The notes under the pieces were generated by a model, which made no database searches, was not told where the DNA came from, and was given only the letters and a program-made list of their open reading frames with translations. This document shows, one piece after another, positions 3,382-9,715 of a stretch of DNA of 31,717 nucleotides. Each line of letters opens with the position of its first letter. Position 1 is the stretch's first letter. The DNA is from a virus: the IMG/VR virus record IMGVR_UViG_3300047494_000270, positions 1-31,717 of that record. One strand, given 5' to 3'. Made by a program: the position numbers and the translations under genes.

Positions 3382-4530
3382 ATGAGGCAACCGAAGAACC
3401 AACCGAATGTCCAATCGCGGGGCCGCGACCATCACCTAGATGGGTTGCGAGGTATCGCTGCATTGGTCGTGGTTTTAGAACATTTGTCGGCGCTATTACC
3501 TGTGGCGGATTGGCATTTCGGTCAGGGACTTCGCTGGGAAGTTATTACTGCGCTTTTAAGTTTTCCCTTCAGAGCAGGAAACTTCGCGGTCTACATCTTC
3601 TTCGTTATGTCTGGGATCGTTGTCGCGAAAGCAGCCCGCGACAAACCATGGCCACTATCTCTTCTTGCGCGCTACGTGAGGTTGACACTGCCGATGCTGG
3701 CGGCAAGCCTGCTGGCGTGGCTGCTCCTCTCGGTCTACCCAGATGAGATGCCCGCGATAAGTGCATTCAAGGCGAATTACTGGACAACGAACCTCTATCA
3801 GTTCGGCGCGCCAACTCTTTGGCAAGCAGTATCTGAAGCACTATATGGAGCGTACGCTACGCTCCCTAAGCCGTTAGTGAACCCAGTTCTCTGGTCCATG
3901 CGGATTGAGCTCTGGGGATCGCTGGGTATTTTTACGTTTTACCGCTTCGTTCCAGTCACATGGCGTCTCGGCGCTCTGGCCGGCATCGCCATTTTATTGG
4001 GCGTCTCGGGCGGTTGGGCGTATATTTCCTTCGCCATCGGTGTCGCGCTTTCTGAGTCGGCCGATCGACATCAGATCAAGGGTAATCATCTGACCGGCAT
4101 GGCGATGATGGCGGTTGGCATCGGGATAGCAGCGATGGCTCCTTTGCAGGCGCTACGATATTACTCGCGCCTCGTGACGGCGATTGTTGGCTTTGAGGCC
4201 GATCTGAAAATCCTTGTCTGCACGATTGGCGCCACGTTATTAGTCGGTGGAGTGATCCTAAGCGAGAAAAGTCAGTCGTTTTTGACTTCGCGGGTCCCGC
4301 AGTTTTTGGGAACCGTCTCCTATTCCCTGTATTTGACCCATATGCCGATCCTCTACACGATCTTCGCGGCTTGGTATCTGTCTGCAGGCGCGCCACCTTC
4401 GGCTCCGTTCCTGGGCGTTTGGATGGTGGCGTTTTTGGCCATCGCGATCCCGACTGCCTATGTCGTGACAGTCATCGCTGATCGCCCGGCGACAAGGCTC
4501 ACGAAACTACGGCATCGCGTTGTCAGCTGA
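3382..4530 (+). CDS. Membrane O-acyltransferase (acyltransferase-3/OafA family)
   Basis: The 382-residue protein is an integral-membrane acyltransferase of the Acyl_transf_3 family, which moves acetyl or similar groups across the inner membrane onto surface polysaccharide, lipid or peptidoglycan. The family signature is at the N-terminus: HHLDGLRGIAALVVVLEHL (residues 17-35), with the putative catalytic His34. About ten hydrophobic segments follow, and the conserved late motif FLGTVSYSLYLTHMPIL lies around 310-330. It has only the membrane domain, with no fused SGNH domain; an SGNH esterase is encoded by the next gene. GC content is lower than in the structural genes. Such genes on phages are typically lysogenic-conversion genes that change O-antigen and block further infection. 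The exact acceptor and acyl group cannot be read from the sequence. Confidence 0.88.
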   Translation: MRQPKNQPNVQSRGRDHHLDGLRGIAALVVVLEHLSALLPVADWHFGQGLRWEVITALLSFPFRAGNFAVYIFFVMSGIVVAKAARDKPWPLSLLARYVRLTLPMLAASLLAWLLLSVYPDEMPAISAFKANYWTTNLYQFGAPTLWQAVSEALYGAYATLPKPLVNPVLWSMRIELWGSLGIFTFYRFVPVTWRLGALAGIAILLGVSGGWAYISFAIGVALSESADRHQIKGNHLTGMAMMAVGIGIAAMAPLQALRYYSRLVTAIVGFEADLKILVCTIGATLLVGGVILSEKSQSFLTSRVPQFLGTVSYSLYLTHMPILYTIFAAWYLSAGAPPSAPFLGVWMVAFLAIAIPTAYVVTVIADRPATRLTKLRHRVVS

Positions 4531-4747: not shown

Positions 4748-7048
4748 GTGTCGATCATCTATTCTCAAAGTTACGACGGCACGATCATCGGCGCGCTGCC
4801 AAGCGGATGGTCGCCGATTGACTCCGCCAACTGGGCTGTCAGTAACACCGCTTCTATTTCCGCGCCTAATTCCTTGGTTGGGCCGCTGAGCAGCGGTGAC
4901 GGCGCGCAGATTATGTATACTGGCCAATCCGCCCTCGCCGATATGGAGGTTCGCTACGACGTAGCCGTGGTCAACGGCTTTGTTGGTATCATCCTGCGCG
5001 GGTCGGCAGATTCGACGACTGCCTACATCATCATTCCTGACAACGCCGGAACGCTTAACGGCCAATGGGATGTCTATAAGCGGGTTTCTGGAAGTGTCAC
5101 TCGTATCGACACATTCAGTCCGTCGGGCCTTTCCGGAAACATCAGTATCAGAGCGCGCATCCAGGGCTCGACGATCTCGATAAGGGTTTGGGACCAGGGC
5201 ACGGCAGAGCCAGGCAGCTGGACGCATCAGTCGACCGATGGCTCAATCACGTCCGCAGGTTATCCCGGCTTGTACAACCAGTTCAACGGATCGTCGGGTG
5301 GCTCTGGCGTCGACAATTTCACCCTCGACAATCTGGTGAGTGCTTTCCTCGCCGTCAGCCCGACGTCGGTGATTGCTAGCTCGACCGGAAACACCCTCAC
5401 CCTGACAGGTACCGGCACCAGCTGGACGTCCGGCACACCAGGGTTGCCGACCTTCACCGCGTCAGGCGGCACGATTACCGCGCAGCATGTCACTTCCGCG
5501 ACCTCAGCGACGCTGACTTATACCGCTCCGAGTTCCGCCGGCACCGTCACAATCACCGATCCGGGCACCGGCACGACAGCAATACTGACCGTTTTGGCAA
5601 CGGCGGCCAGCGACTTCACCATCAGCCCAACCTCGAACGCGACCACGCCCGGTGTTGCCACCGGCGGCTACCAGGTCGCGCTTAACGGCGCCCTCGCGTC
5701 GAATGTCTCCATCGCCCTCTCCGATGGCGGCGCCGGCGGCGCGTTCTCGCCTTCCAGCCCGCTCACCTTCACCCCGGGGAATGCCGGCACGCCGCGGACT
5801 GTCACCTATACGCCGCCGGGTGGTAGTGGTGCCGGGACGATTCCGCTCGGCTTCTCCGCCACCGGCGCTTTCACGGCCTCGCATGCGGCGAGCTGTGTCG
5901 TCGGCACCGGTCCGGTCACGGTGGCCGTCAGCGACCCGAATTTGTTCTTCTCGCCCTATAATTGGCGGATGTCGGGCTCCAGCTTCGCGATTTCGGCCTG
6001 TAACGGGGCTTATATGAAAATGGGGTTCACCGGTACCTCGATCAAAATCGCGCTGAATATCGCGGGCTATGCCGCGCTGTACGGCAACGCGGCGCTGTGG
6101 CCGAAGGTCAGGTGGTCGATCGACGACGGCGCGGCTGTCGATCATCAGCTGACATCCGGCGACGCCACCCTGACCCTGGCGACAGGGCTGCCGGCCGGAA
6201 CGCATCAGCTTTACTTCTGCATGGTCTCGACGACCGACGGCTACGACCGCTGGGTCGGGCCTGGCAGCGCCGTCATCCCGACCGGCTTCATTCTCGACGG
6301 CGGGGCCGAAACCGTCGCGCCGCCGCTGAGCGCGATGCGGGTCCTGTTTCTTGGCGACAGCATCACCGAGGGCGTCAAGACCACCGGGCAAGCCAGTTCG
6401 GGCGACATCGCCAACAATGACAGCCAGCTGGAATGGTGCGCCCTGCTCGGCAAGGCGTTTCCGGCCGAGTATGGTCAGGTCGGCTATGGCGGGCTGGGCT
6501 GGATTTCGCCCAGCGCCGGCGGCAGCCCGCCCGGCGCGGTGCCGTTCTTCACGCCGGGCAACGACACGCTGTCGAGCTGGGATAAATATTCCCAGGGGCA
6601 GTCGCGGCTGGTGTCCGGCCTGTTCAGCCCGGCGCCCGATATCATCTGCATCATGCTGGGCGCGAACGACCGAACCCTGCCGGCGGGCAACGTCCAGGCC
6701 TCAGTGACGGCGGCGTTGCCGGCGATCAGGGCCGCCGCGCCCGATGCCTGGATCTTCGTCATCTATGAGGTCACCACGCTGAACCAGAAGGCCGCGGTCC
6801 TGGCCGGGTTCGATGCCTATCAGGCGGCGGCGCCGGACGGCAAATGCGCGATCGTCGATTGCGGGATCGAGGCGCATTTCAATTTCAACGACGTGCCGAC
6901 CGACATGGCCGCCGACGGCATCCACCCGGCCTATTATGCCACCGGCCAGATCGCCGGCATCGTCATGAAGCAGATTGAGGACGCGATGCAGGGCGGCGGG
7001 ACCGCGACCACCGCCGGCTATTCCCGCGCCCGGGTCGTCAATGAATAA
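4748..7048 (+). CDS. Virion-like multidomain protein with C-terminal SGNH/GDSL esterase
   Basis: This 766-residue protein starts at GTG behind GGGAG. Domains in order: a jelly-roll, LamG/concanavalin-like N-terminal domain (about 1-195), Ig-like beta modules rich in Thr/Ser/Gly (about 196-390), a further beta sandwich (about 393-525) like that preceding the catalytic domain in CE2-type esterases, and an SGNH hydrolase (about 528-750). The catalytic blocks are clear: FLGDSITEG with Ser538, MLGAND with Asn640, and DGIHP with Asp723 and His726. There is no signal peptide, so it fits a tail-spike or decoration protein that deacylates host surface polysaccharide better than a secreted enzyme. It directly follows the acyltransferase gene, with 217 bp between them. 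The substrate, and whether it is on the virion, are inferred. Confidence 0.8.
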   Translation: MSIIYSQSYDGTIIGALPSGWSPIDSANWAVSNTASISAPNSLVGPLSSGDGAQIMYTGQSALADMEVRYDVAVVNGFVGIILRGSADSTTAYIIIPDNAGTLNGQWDVYKRVSGSVTRIDTFSPSGLSGNISIRARIQGSTISIRVWDQGTAEPGSWTHQSTDGSITSAGYPGLYNQFNGSSGGSGVDNFTLDNLVSAFLAVSPTSVIASSTGNTLTLTGTGTSWTSGTPGLPTFTASGGTITAQHVTSATSATLTYTAPSSAGTVTITDPGTGTTAILTVLATAASDFTISPTSNATTPGVATGGYQVALNGALASNVSIALSDGGAGGAFSPSSPLTFTPGNAGTPRTVTYTPPGGSGAGTIPLGFSATGAFTASHAASCVVGTGPVTVAVSDPNLFFSPYNWRMSGSSFAISACNGAYMKMGFTGTSIKIALNIAGYAALYGNAALWPKVRWSIDDGAAVDHQLTSGDATLTLATGLPAGTHQLYFCMVSTTDGYDRWVGPGSAVIPTGFILDGGAETVAPPLSAMRVLFLGDSITEGVKTTGQASSGDIANNDSQLEWCALLGKAFPAEYGQVGYGGLGWISPSAGGSPPGAVPFFTPGNDTLSSWDKYSQGQSRLVSGLFSPAPDIICIMLGANDRTLPAGNVQASVTAALPAIRAAAPDAWIFVIYEVTTLNQKAAVLAGFDAYQAAAPDGKCAIVDCGIEAHFNFNDVPTDMAADGIHPAYYATGQIAGIVMKQIEDAMQGGGTATTAGYSRARVVNE

Positions 7049-7970: not shown

Positions 7971-8504
7971 ATGCAATTGATCCTGAACGGCGATACGCGG
8001 CCGATCCTGTTCTTCATGGCGCAATCGGCAAATCACGTCTACGGGCTGACCGGGGCCGCGCCCACCGTGGCCATCTCCAAGAACGGCGGCGGGTTCGCGG
8101 CGCCGGTGGGGACGGTCGCTGAGGTTGGGGATGGCTGGTACAGGCTGACGCCCGGCGGCGCCGACGTGACGACCAACGGCATCCTGCTGCTGCATGCCAC
8201 CGCGACGGGCGGCGATCCAGCGGATGTGAAGGCCCAGGTGGTCGCGTTCGACCCCTATGCCGCGAGCCCGGCCTTGAGCGCGATCCAGGCCGGCGTGCTG
8301 AACACCGCGCTGACCGAAAGCTATGCCGCGAACGGGGAGCCGGCGACGCTGGCGCAGCTGCTGTATGGCATCTCAGCCGTCATGAGCAACATCGCGCAGG
8401 ACGGCAATACGCTGACCGCCAACCGGCTGGATGGAGTGACGCCGGCGATGAGCTTCACGCTGGACAGCGCCACCGCGCCGACGTCGCGGCGGCGGATGTC
8501 GTGA
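7971..8504 (+). CDS. Beta-rich phage structural protein (putative)
   Basis: The start chosen is the ATG at 7971, which has AGGAGA 6 nt upstream; the frame is open further left, but that part overlaps the broken GNAT gene and the terminator. The 177-residue protein has an N-terminal half of short strands with the motif GVAEVG/DGWYRL-type turn (here AEVGDGWYRLTPGGADV near 50-65) and ILLLHATATGGDP, a pattern I associate with small structural proteins of alphaproteobacterial siphophages. The C-terminal half is helix plus a Thr-rich tail. It could be a tail- or head-decoration protein. The motif assignment is from memory; the structural role is inference. Confidence 0.65.
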   Translation: MQLILNGDTRPILFFMAQSANHVYGLTGAAPTVAISKNGGGFAAPVGTVAEVGDGWYRLTPGGADVTTNGILLLHATATGGDPADVKAQVVAFDPYAASPALSAIQAGVLNTALTESYAANGEPATLAQLLYGISAVMSNIAQDGNTLTANRLDGVTPAMSFTLDSATAPTSRRRMS

Positions 8505-8514
8505 GTTTTGGAGA

Positions 8515-8528
8515 CAGATTGCAATCTG
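8515..8528. repeat. Perfect 14-bp palindrome
   Basis: CAGATTGCAATCTG is its own reverse complement. It begins 11 nt after the stop of the structural gene and is the first of three perfect palindromes in the 118 bp before the toxin-antitoxin pair. Likely a protein-binding site or a small hairpin. Confidence 0.6.
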
Positions 8529-8537
8529 CCTACAACG

Positions 8538-8551
8538 CTTGGCCGGCCAAG
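8538..8551. repeat. Second perfect 14-bp palindrome
   Basis: CTTGGCCGGCCAAG is its own reverse complement, 9 nt after the first palindrome. The centres of the two are 23 bp apart, about two helical turns, so paired proteins would sit on one face of the DNA. Confidence 0.6.
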
Positions 8552-8570
8552 TCCCATCCTTGCCGGCGCG

Positions 8571-8618
8571 GTCCCCATCAGCGATATTACCGAATTCGGT
8601 AATATCGCTGATGGGGAC
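8571..8618. promoter_or_regulatory. Perfect 48-bp palindrome, candidate operator/hairpin of the TA module
   Basis: The 24-nt left arm (8571-8594) and right arm (8595-8618) are exact reverse complements with no loop; the centre is ACCGAATTCGGT. The right arm contains an in-frame ATG at 8611 and the GGGGA that would serve the antitoxin start at 8623. As DNA it is a large symmetric operator or a cruciform-prone site; as RNA it would fold into a long hairpin that hides the ribosome site. Autoregulation of the antitoxin-toxin operon is the likely role, by analogy with Phd/YefM systems whose antitoxins bind palindromes. Confidence 0.75.
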
Positions 8619-8622
8619 GCTG

Positions 8623-8910
8623 ATGGACATCACAAAAGACATTCAGCCGATGACCACCTTCCGCAATCATTCGGCGGAGATCATGCGGCATCTCAAGGAG
8701 ACCCAACGTCCGGTCATCCTGACGGTCAACGGCCGGGCCGCCGCCGTCGTGCAGGATGCGGATGCCTATCAGCGATTGCTTGATATCGCAGCCGAGGCCA
8801 ACGCCTCCGAGGGCATCAGGCAAGGATTGGAAGATTTGGCGAACGGGCGGACAAGGCCGGTGCTGACGGTCTTTGACGAAATACGCGCGGAATATGACAT
8901 ATCGCGTTGA
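8623..8910 (+). CDS. Phd/YefM-family antitoxin
   Basis: The 95-residue protein shows the Phd/YefM DNA-binding N-domain: PMTTFRNHSAEIMRHLKET, then RPVILTVNGRAAAVVQDADAYQRLLD (residues 10-55), where the NGR turn and following strand are typical. The C-terminal part (56-95), charged and probably disordered until bound, would wrap the toxin. The ATG at 8623 is chosen because GGGGA precedes it; an in-frame ATG at 8611 lies inside the 48-bp palindrome and would add four residues. It overlaps the toxin gene by 17 nt. The protein is expected to neutralise the toxin and repress its own operon by binding the palindromes upstream. Confidence 0.88.
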   Translation: MDITKDIQPMTTFRNHSAEIMRHLKETQRPVILTVNGRAAAVVQDADAYQRLLDIAAEANASEGIRQGLEDLANGRTRPVLTVFDEIRAEYDISR

Positions 8911-9205
8911 ACTGACGACCCGTGCAAGCCGAGATCTAAGGCATATTTTCAAAACCATCGCAGCGGCCGATTCCGTTCAGGCCAAGCATTGGTTCAATGG
9001 ACTTGAAGAGGCGGTACTCAGCCTAAAACGACATCCGGCAAGAGGAATGGCCACACCGGAGGACTGCGGCTTGCGACAGCTGCTTTATGGCAGCGACCGT
9101 TATATTTACCGGATCATCTACACGATCGATGAAGGCAACCGGCGCGTAATCGTGATCCATGTGCGACACGGATCACGCAGGCCAATGGTGCCGAACCCGC
9201 GCTAA
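8894..9205 (+). CDS. ParE/RelE-family toxin
   Basis: The 103-residue protein starts at an ATG inside the antitoxin frame, which gives the normal toxin length. It has the ParE/RelE fold: strand YRVELTTRASRDLRHIF, helix pair with AKHWFNGLEEAVLSLKRHP, then strands with RQLLYGSDRYIYRIIYTID and VIVIHVRHGSRR, the last being the usual C-terminal HxR-type strand. ParE members poison gyrase and RelE members cut ribosome-bound mRNA; the sequence alone does not settle which. The module sits between two structural genes of the late block, where it could stabilise the prophage or act against competing phages. Confidence 0.88.
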   Translation: MTYRVELTTRASRDLRHIFKTIAAADSVQAKHWFNGLEEAVLSLKRHPARGMATPEDCGLRQLLYGSDRYIYRIIYTIDEGNRRVIVIHVRHGSRRPMVPNPR

Positions 9206-9265
9206 TCGAGCCGGCGGCGACTTCGCGAAGGCTATTCGCATCTATCAAAAATTCAGGAGACCGCC

Positions 9266-9715
9266 ATGCCCGCTTGGCCGATCACGTTGGGGTTGGGACA
9301 GGGCGGGCCGGTTTCATTGTGCCTGGATGGGCTGAAGGGGGGCGGCATGGCGCTGAATCCGCGGCGGGTGATGATCCCGGTCTTTCCGTCCGGCTATGCC
9401 GGGCGCGATTTCCCGGCTTTGTCGGTGCTGGCCGACGATGCCTTCGCCATCGATCTTCGGCCCGGGCTGGATGTGGGCGACCGGCTGGACCCGGACACGT
9501 TGCAGACGATGTTCTTTCCGGTCGATGCGCCGGTGACGGATTTCGCCGCCGCCTTGCGCGGGCAGCCGGTTCTGGTCGGCACGGTCGCGGCGCAGGCGAT
9601 CGGCCAGCCGCCGGCGGGGCGTTACGCGCTGGGCTTCAGCTGCCGCACGGTGAACGGACGGACGGTCCAGATCCATTCCTTCTTCGAAGCCGTGGGGTTG
9701 CCCGATGCCGCCTGA
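9266..9715 (+). CDS. Hypothetical structural protein, possible fibre-tail adaptor
   Basis: The 149-residue protein has a good AGGAGA site before ATG 9266 and overlaps the portal start by 11 nt. The N-terminal 50 residues are Gly-rich; then come PDTLQTMFFPVDAPVTDF and alternating strands (PVLVGTVAAQAIGQPPAG, YALGFSCRTVNGRT, VQIHSFF). The final strands resemble the small beta-sandwich proteins annotated as fibre-tail adaptors in some phages. The ribosome site and leader are nearly the same as those of the gene at 7971, with the toxin-antitoxin module lodged between them. The role is uncertain. Confidence 0.6.
   Translation: MPAWPITLGLGQGGPVSLCLDGLKGGGMALNPRRVMIPVFPSGYAGRDFPALSVLADDAFAIDLRPGLDVGDRLDPDTLQTMFFPVDAPVTDFAAALRGQPVLVGTVAAQAIGQPPAGRYALGFSCRTVNGRTVQIHSFFEAVGLPDAA

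Follow-up and report, generated by a model that had tools for sequence, protein, structure and literature searches.

Palindromic antitoxin-binding sites that lie over the promoters of toxin–antitoxin (TA) operons are already well known (PMC7730913, PMC4803016), and in yefM-yoeB the palindromes bound by the antitoxin overlap the promoter (PMC7730913). By template switching, imperfect quasipalindromes can become perfect ones (PMC7202029). The locus analysed here lies in a 31,717-base virus record, the whole of which is referred to as the window. It resembles yefM-yoeB and axe-txe in combining a Phd/YefM antitoxin with a RelE/ParE-superfamily toxin and in placing a palindrome just upstream of the antitoxin gene, where it overlaps the promoter, here a predicted one (PMC7730913, PMC4803016). 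The features of the locus are as follows.

8508–8535, no strand: palindromic repeat TTGGAGACAGATTGCAATCTGCCTACAA, phage-specific and separate from the operator, located at the cargo site
8559–8564, + strand: −35-like box CTTGCC
8571–8618, no strand: perfect 48-bp palindrome, composed of two 24-nt arms (8571–8594 and 8595–8618) that are fully complementary (100%) and have no spacer (0 nt)
8571–8582, no strand: outer left arm GTCCCCATCAGC, unconserved among the relatives
8582–8587, + strand: candidate −10 box CGATAT, within the palindrome's left half at a distance of 17 nt from the −35-like box, assigned from consensus and spacing
8583–8606, no strand: operator core GATATTACCGAATTCGGTAATATC, with the conserved part TTACCnnA·TnnGGTAA
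8607–8618, no strand: outer right arm GCTGATGGGGAC, identical at 9 of 12 positions to the adjoining GCTGATGGACAT at 8619–8630
8623–8910, + strand: Phd/YefM antitoxin gene, start ATG 8623 (PF02604, E 6e-12; TIGR01552; alignment of relatives)
8894–9205, + strand: RelE/ParE-superfamily toxin gene, its start overlapping the end of the antitoxin gene (PF05016, E 3.9e-16; phrog_2455; RelE of PDB entry 9g12, E 1e-4)

The gene pair and its conserved palindromic core

The antitoxin scores above the curated PhdYeFM_antitox cut-off (45.6 bits against 29.8; PF02604) and above that of TIGR01552 (36.6 bits against 20.8), and the toxin scores above the curated ParE_toxin cut-off (59.8 bits against 23; PF05016). 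The original prediction of a Phd–ParE type module is borne out by the PF02604 and PF05016 matches, which identify a Phd/YefM antitoxin and a RelE/ParE-superfamily toxin. As regards an activity of the ParE (gyrase) or the RelE (mRNA cleavage) type, the toxin reaches 22.6 bits with the NCBIfam model RelE_StbE, under the cut-off of 27.9, and its best PDB match is a RelE. The pair is retained in phage relatives.

The antitoxin start that is conserved among the relatives corresponds to position 8623 (MDITKDIQ…; alignment of 22), and the N-terminus is almost invariant in the same alignment. An ATG at 8611, inside the palindrome, is in frame with 8623, as had been pointed out, but it is private to the window sequence, and the conservation of 8623 rules it out as the genuine start. 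A weak Shine–Dalgarno-like GGGGA lies at 8613–8617, within the right arm. The palindrome had been described as covering the translation start; it ends 4 nt before the ATG at 8623, and therefore covers the ribosome site but not the start codon.

The upstream regions of the relatives (phages and genomes, the latter mostly Acetobacteraceae) were compared by anchoring them on the centre of the palindrome. The antitoxin homologues came from three virus contigs (83–87% identity) and from 30 genome loci, mostly of Acetobacteraceae and related MAGs with some of Acidobacteria; further genome searches added a few antitoxin loci and few new operator loci. The core (A)TTACCnnA·TnnGGTAA(T) is present in ~26 distinct relatives, centred 26–34 nt upstream of the antitoxin start. 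In the Acidobacteria clade the two halves of the core have changed in concert, giving (A/G)GCACC…GGTGC in loci L032 and L033. The flanks of the core diverge among the relatives, and pairing beyond an offset of ~12 drops toward background. In the upstream regions of generic Acetobacteraceae Phd/YefM loci no perfect arm exceeds 5 nt, which is a rough yardstick as their starts are unannotated and a few short reversed loci are possibly misplaced.

The fixed place of the core and the symmetric changes in the Acidobacteria copies form the pattern of an autoregulatory operator. On this comparative evidence the conserved core is almost certainly the operator of the antitoxin. The proposal that the site marks the operator of a Phd/YefM module agrees with the recurrence of the core at the same place in the relatives. 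Related gene pairs are thus preceded by the core, but nearly all of them lack the outer arms or have them in imperfect form. In more distant viral relatives of the antitoxin (L054–L063) another palindrome, GCATnnAATnnGATGC, is conserved in about this region.

Extent of the palindrome

An inverted-repeat search agrees with the description of a perfect 48-bp palindrome with exactly reverse-complementary 24-nt arms and no spacer. No other short-spaced inverted repeat in the window is as long, the runner-up having 16 nt at 94%, and no other perfect zero-spacer palindrome with arms longer than 15 nt was found in 419 kb of fetched loci. The second longest in these loci, with 15-nt arms, is that of L023, and it likewise lies at the operator. 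In each arm the outer 12 bp belong to the window record alone, with partial parallels in L023 and in the chromosomal locus L016, which has the left-flank string CCCATCAGCG in common with the window. Searches of virus contigs found no second independent record with the identical 48 bp, an exact search for the 24-bp core across viral contigs returned zero matches and a DNA similarity search against phage and plasmid collections gave none. Five matches to a 17-mer of the right arm were taken as chance because none of them is palindromic.

Given the conserved inner 12 pairs, the probability of a chance match of the outer 12 pairs is ~3e-7 per locus, or ~8e-6 over 27 loci; the per-locus value rules out a chance origin of the extension. 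A role of the palindrome as a terminator was ruled out by the absence of a T run, and the phage-specific palindrome at 8508–8535 was ruled out as the source of the arms by its different sequence.

Predicted promoter, RNA folding and proposed growth of the arms

Of 27 loci, 15 have the pentamer CTTGC 25–38 nt upstream of the palindrome centre (0.4 expected), and 19 have TTGC in the expected interval (1.5 expected). The phage copies L003 and L004 have the same −35/−10 arrangement as the window, with spacings of 17 and 16 nt, respectively, and in the chromosomal copies the spacing indicates a −10 some nucleotides further downstream than in the phage copies. The candidate −10 is a weak one and is not the same in the phage as in the chromosomal copies; a consensus promoter scan of the E. 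coli type called no promoter at the site. The placement of the boxes predicts that transcription begins at ~8594–8596, at or just right of the centre of the palindrome. The left arm would then lie upstream of the start in the phage and chromosomal arrangements alike, so that the operon's own mRNA would lack it and could not form the hairpin.

RNA that contains both arms has a very stable fold (−63.8 kcal/mol, z −7.9; second fold −48.9 kcal/mol, z −8.7), and RNA from 8595 onwards folds no better than shuffles. The combination of an operator with a translation-blocking hairpin, which had been proposed as a two-layer control, is not upheld as a general mechanism, since hardly any relative has perfect outer arms, conservation does not extend to the ATG at 8611 and the inferred start of transcription falls at the centre. 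A hairpin is possible only in putative read-through mRNA coming from upstream phage genes.

The explanation that we consider probable is that an ordinary autorepression operator had its arms lengthened by template-switch (quasipalindrome) mutation; here the binding, the promoter use and the mutational origin are all read from sequence. The inner 20–24 bp would constitute the operator of the phage-borne phd/yefM-relE/parE operon, to which a dimer of the antitoxin would bind, the toxin probably acting as co-repressor. The bound dimer would block the overlapping promoter, with its −35 at ~8559, its −10 in the left half and its start near the centre, and the extra 12 bp per arm would lie outside the recognised site. 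These most likely arose by quasipalindrome template switching, in which the polymerase would have doubled back at the operator palindrome and used one arm as the template for the other. In the original prediction the alternative was that an older and shorter operator (the central ACCGAATTCGGT) had given rise to the long palindrome, and this alternative fits best because conservation is limited to the inner part. A further indication comes from the flanks of the relatives, in which complementarity at offsets 13–18 is 0.385 within loci against 0.278 across loci (P ~0.003, uncorrected for seven bins). The excess has P 0.008 without L016 and P 0.027 without L016 and L023, and it fades by offset 25, with none left beyond. 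A small excess at these offsets is the trace expected of an operator that seeds the copying of its arms. The searches found no close relative carrying a pre-extension sequence, which counts against this explanation. As the right arm also matches the adjoining 12 nt (8619–8630) at 9 of 12 positions, the copying may have run in either direction.

The perfect symmetry of the extension is also consistent with outer arms that bind further antitoxin dimers or the toxin–antitoxin complex to give tighter or cooperative repression, and yefM-yoeB uses paired palindromes 12 bp apart (PMC7730913). However, the half-site TACC/GGTA is absent from the outer arms, and these are unconserved despite the conserved N-terminus of the antitoxin. 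A nearly invariant N-terminus alongside unconserved outer arms makes protein contact there unlikely to explain the extension, and we regard such an enlarged operator as improbable. An error of metagenome assembly in the left or the right arm is a very remote prospect; the sequence comes from a single metagenomic virus record and the same 48 bp occur in no second one, but the palindrome lies in mid-contig and is centred exactly on the conserved operator, homologous phage sequence flanks it on both sides and the reading frames are intact.

Control at two levels, with a DNA operator and, in putative read-through transcripts, a 22-bp hairpin by which the ribosome site is masked and translation of the antitoxin reduced, would mean that lytic transcription does not simply add antitoxin. 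The stability of the read-through fold and the co-directional position of the module between phage genes are both consistent with this. So is L016 (160–210), which forms an uninterrupted 18-bp sense-RNA stem centred on the operator; every pair in it that departs from Watson–Crick is G·U, and its complementary outer arms are shifted in position but symmetric. Among the relatives the sense strand folds slightly better with its own than with swapped flanks (P 0.004; P 0.02 without L016), and the antisense effect is weaker (P 0.07). Against this, the operon's own transcript would, by the inferred promoter, lack the left arm and fold like shuffles, and most relatives, including the phage copies L003–L005, are without the extended stem. 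A pair-level test gave the same result for G·U (RNA) and A·C (DNA) symmetry and so did not separate the two origins. Taken together, these results leave control at two levels unlikely in the window phage. It is also unlikely that a few Phd/YefM modules (those of the window phage, L016 and perhaps L023) have an operator enlarged into a dual DNA/RNA element, the stem of which shuts antitoxin translation on read-through transcripts only; if this were true, transcription from outside could be sensed separately from that of the module's own promoter. The symmetric complementary arms of L016, with departures by G·U only, could mean selection for a stem and to that extent speak against template switching. 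Together with the uncorrected flank excess, the G·U-tolerant stem of L016 sustains a structural role as a minority reading. Under the favoured template-switch explanation, the extension of the arms in the window phage is probably non-functional.

Phage setting and comparison with known systems

In phages with homologous neighbouring genes the corresponding site is empty in L064, L066, L070 and L071 and holds the same TA pair in L067–L069. In L065 it holds a reverse-strand nucleotidyltransferase gene (NTP_transf_8, PF12281), and the insert of L072 resembles that of L065 in size and sequence. Since the site may be empty, occupied by the TA pair or occupied by another gene, the TA module is optional cargo between two phage genes and is co-directional with its neighbours. 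The cargo hot spot extends over 8504–9266 in the window and is represented in L064–L072. In L004 the 3′ end of the upstream phage gene is repeated in degraded form after the toxin gene (3573–3680), which suggests that the TA pair arrived there with a piece of this phage gene.

The phage-specific repeat at 8508–8535 belongs to a near-perfect palindromic repeat with the consensus TTGGAGACAGATTGCAATCTGTCTCCAA, which is also found in L064 (4555), L066 (4567), L072 (5613 and 5651), L065 (1608) and L003 (3696). Several related phages have the repeat at the cargo site whether or not cargo is present, and it occurs in none of 60 Acetobacteraceae genomes; it may mark or mediate cargo exchange. Pfam matches near the TA module identify an acyltransferase-domain protein (3382–4530) and a GDSL-lipase-like protein (4748–7048).

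The analysis defines a conserved operator, TTACCnnATnnGGTAA, for Phd/YefM-RelE/ParE modules that are common to phages and mostly Acetobacteraceae genomes. The sequence of this core is new, in that no description of it was found in the literature on TA operators consulted for comparison, as is the extreme and probably non-functional extension of its arms in one phage. The locus is a clear natural example of a protein-binding palindrome that may itself have initiated its extension outwards. Should operators as a rule lengthen like this, function is not to be assumed automatically for a long perfect palindrome at a regulatory site.

The operators of yefM-yoeB and axe-txe are paired TGTACA palindromes, those of YefM–YoeB lying 12 bp apart, whereas the site described here is a single palindrome with 24-nt arms and a TTACC…GGTAA core. 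By sequence, the closest solved relatives of the two proteins are RelB and RelE of PDB entry 9g12 and Rv2865 of Mycobacterium tuberculosis (PDB entry 3g5o); the comparison covered the proteins, whose similarity is weak (E 1e-5 to 1e-3). The arm extension resembles quasipalindrome template-switch mutations, in which imperfect repeats are made perfect by the copying of one arm (PMC7202029), although unlike the documented cases it is deduced from the end product and its ancestor is unobserved. The kis-kid antitoxin belongs to another family, but the region I operator of kis-kid is, like the site in the window, a perfect palindrome over the −10 box (here a candidate) of a TA promoter (PMC4803016).
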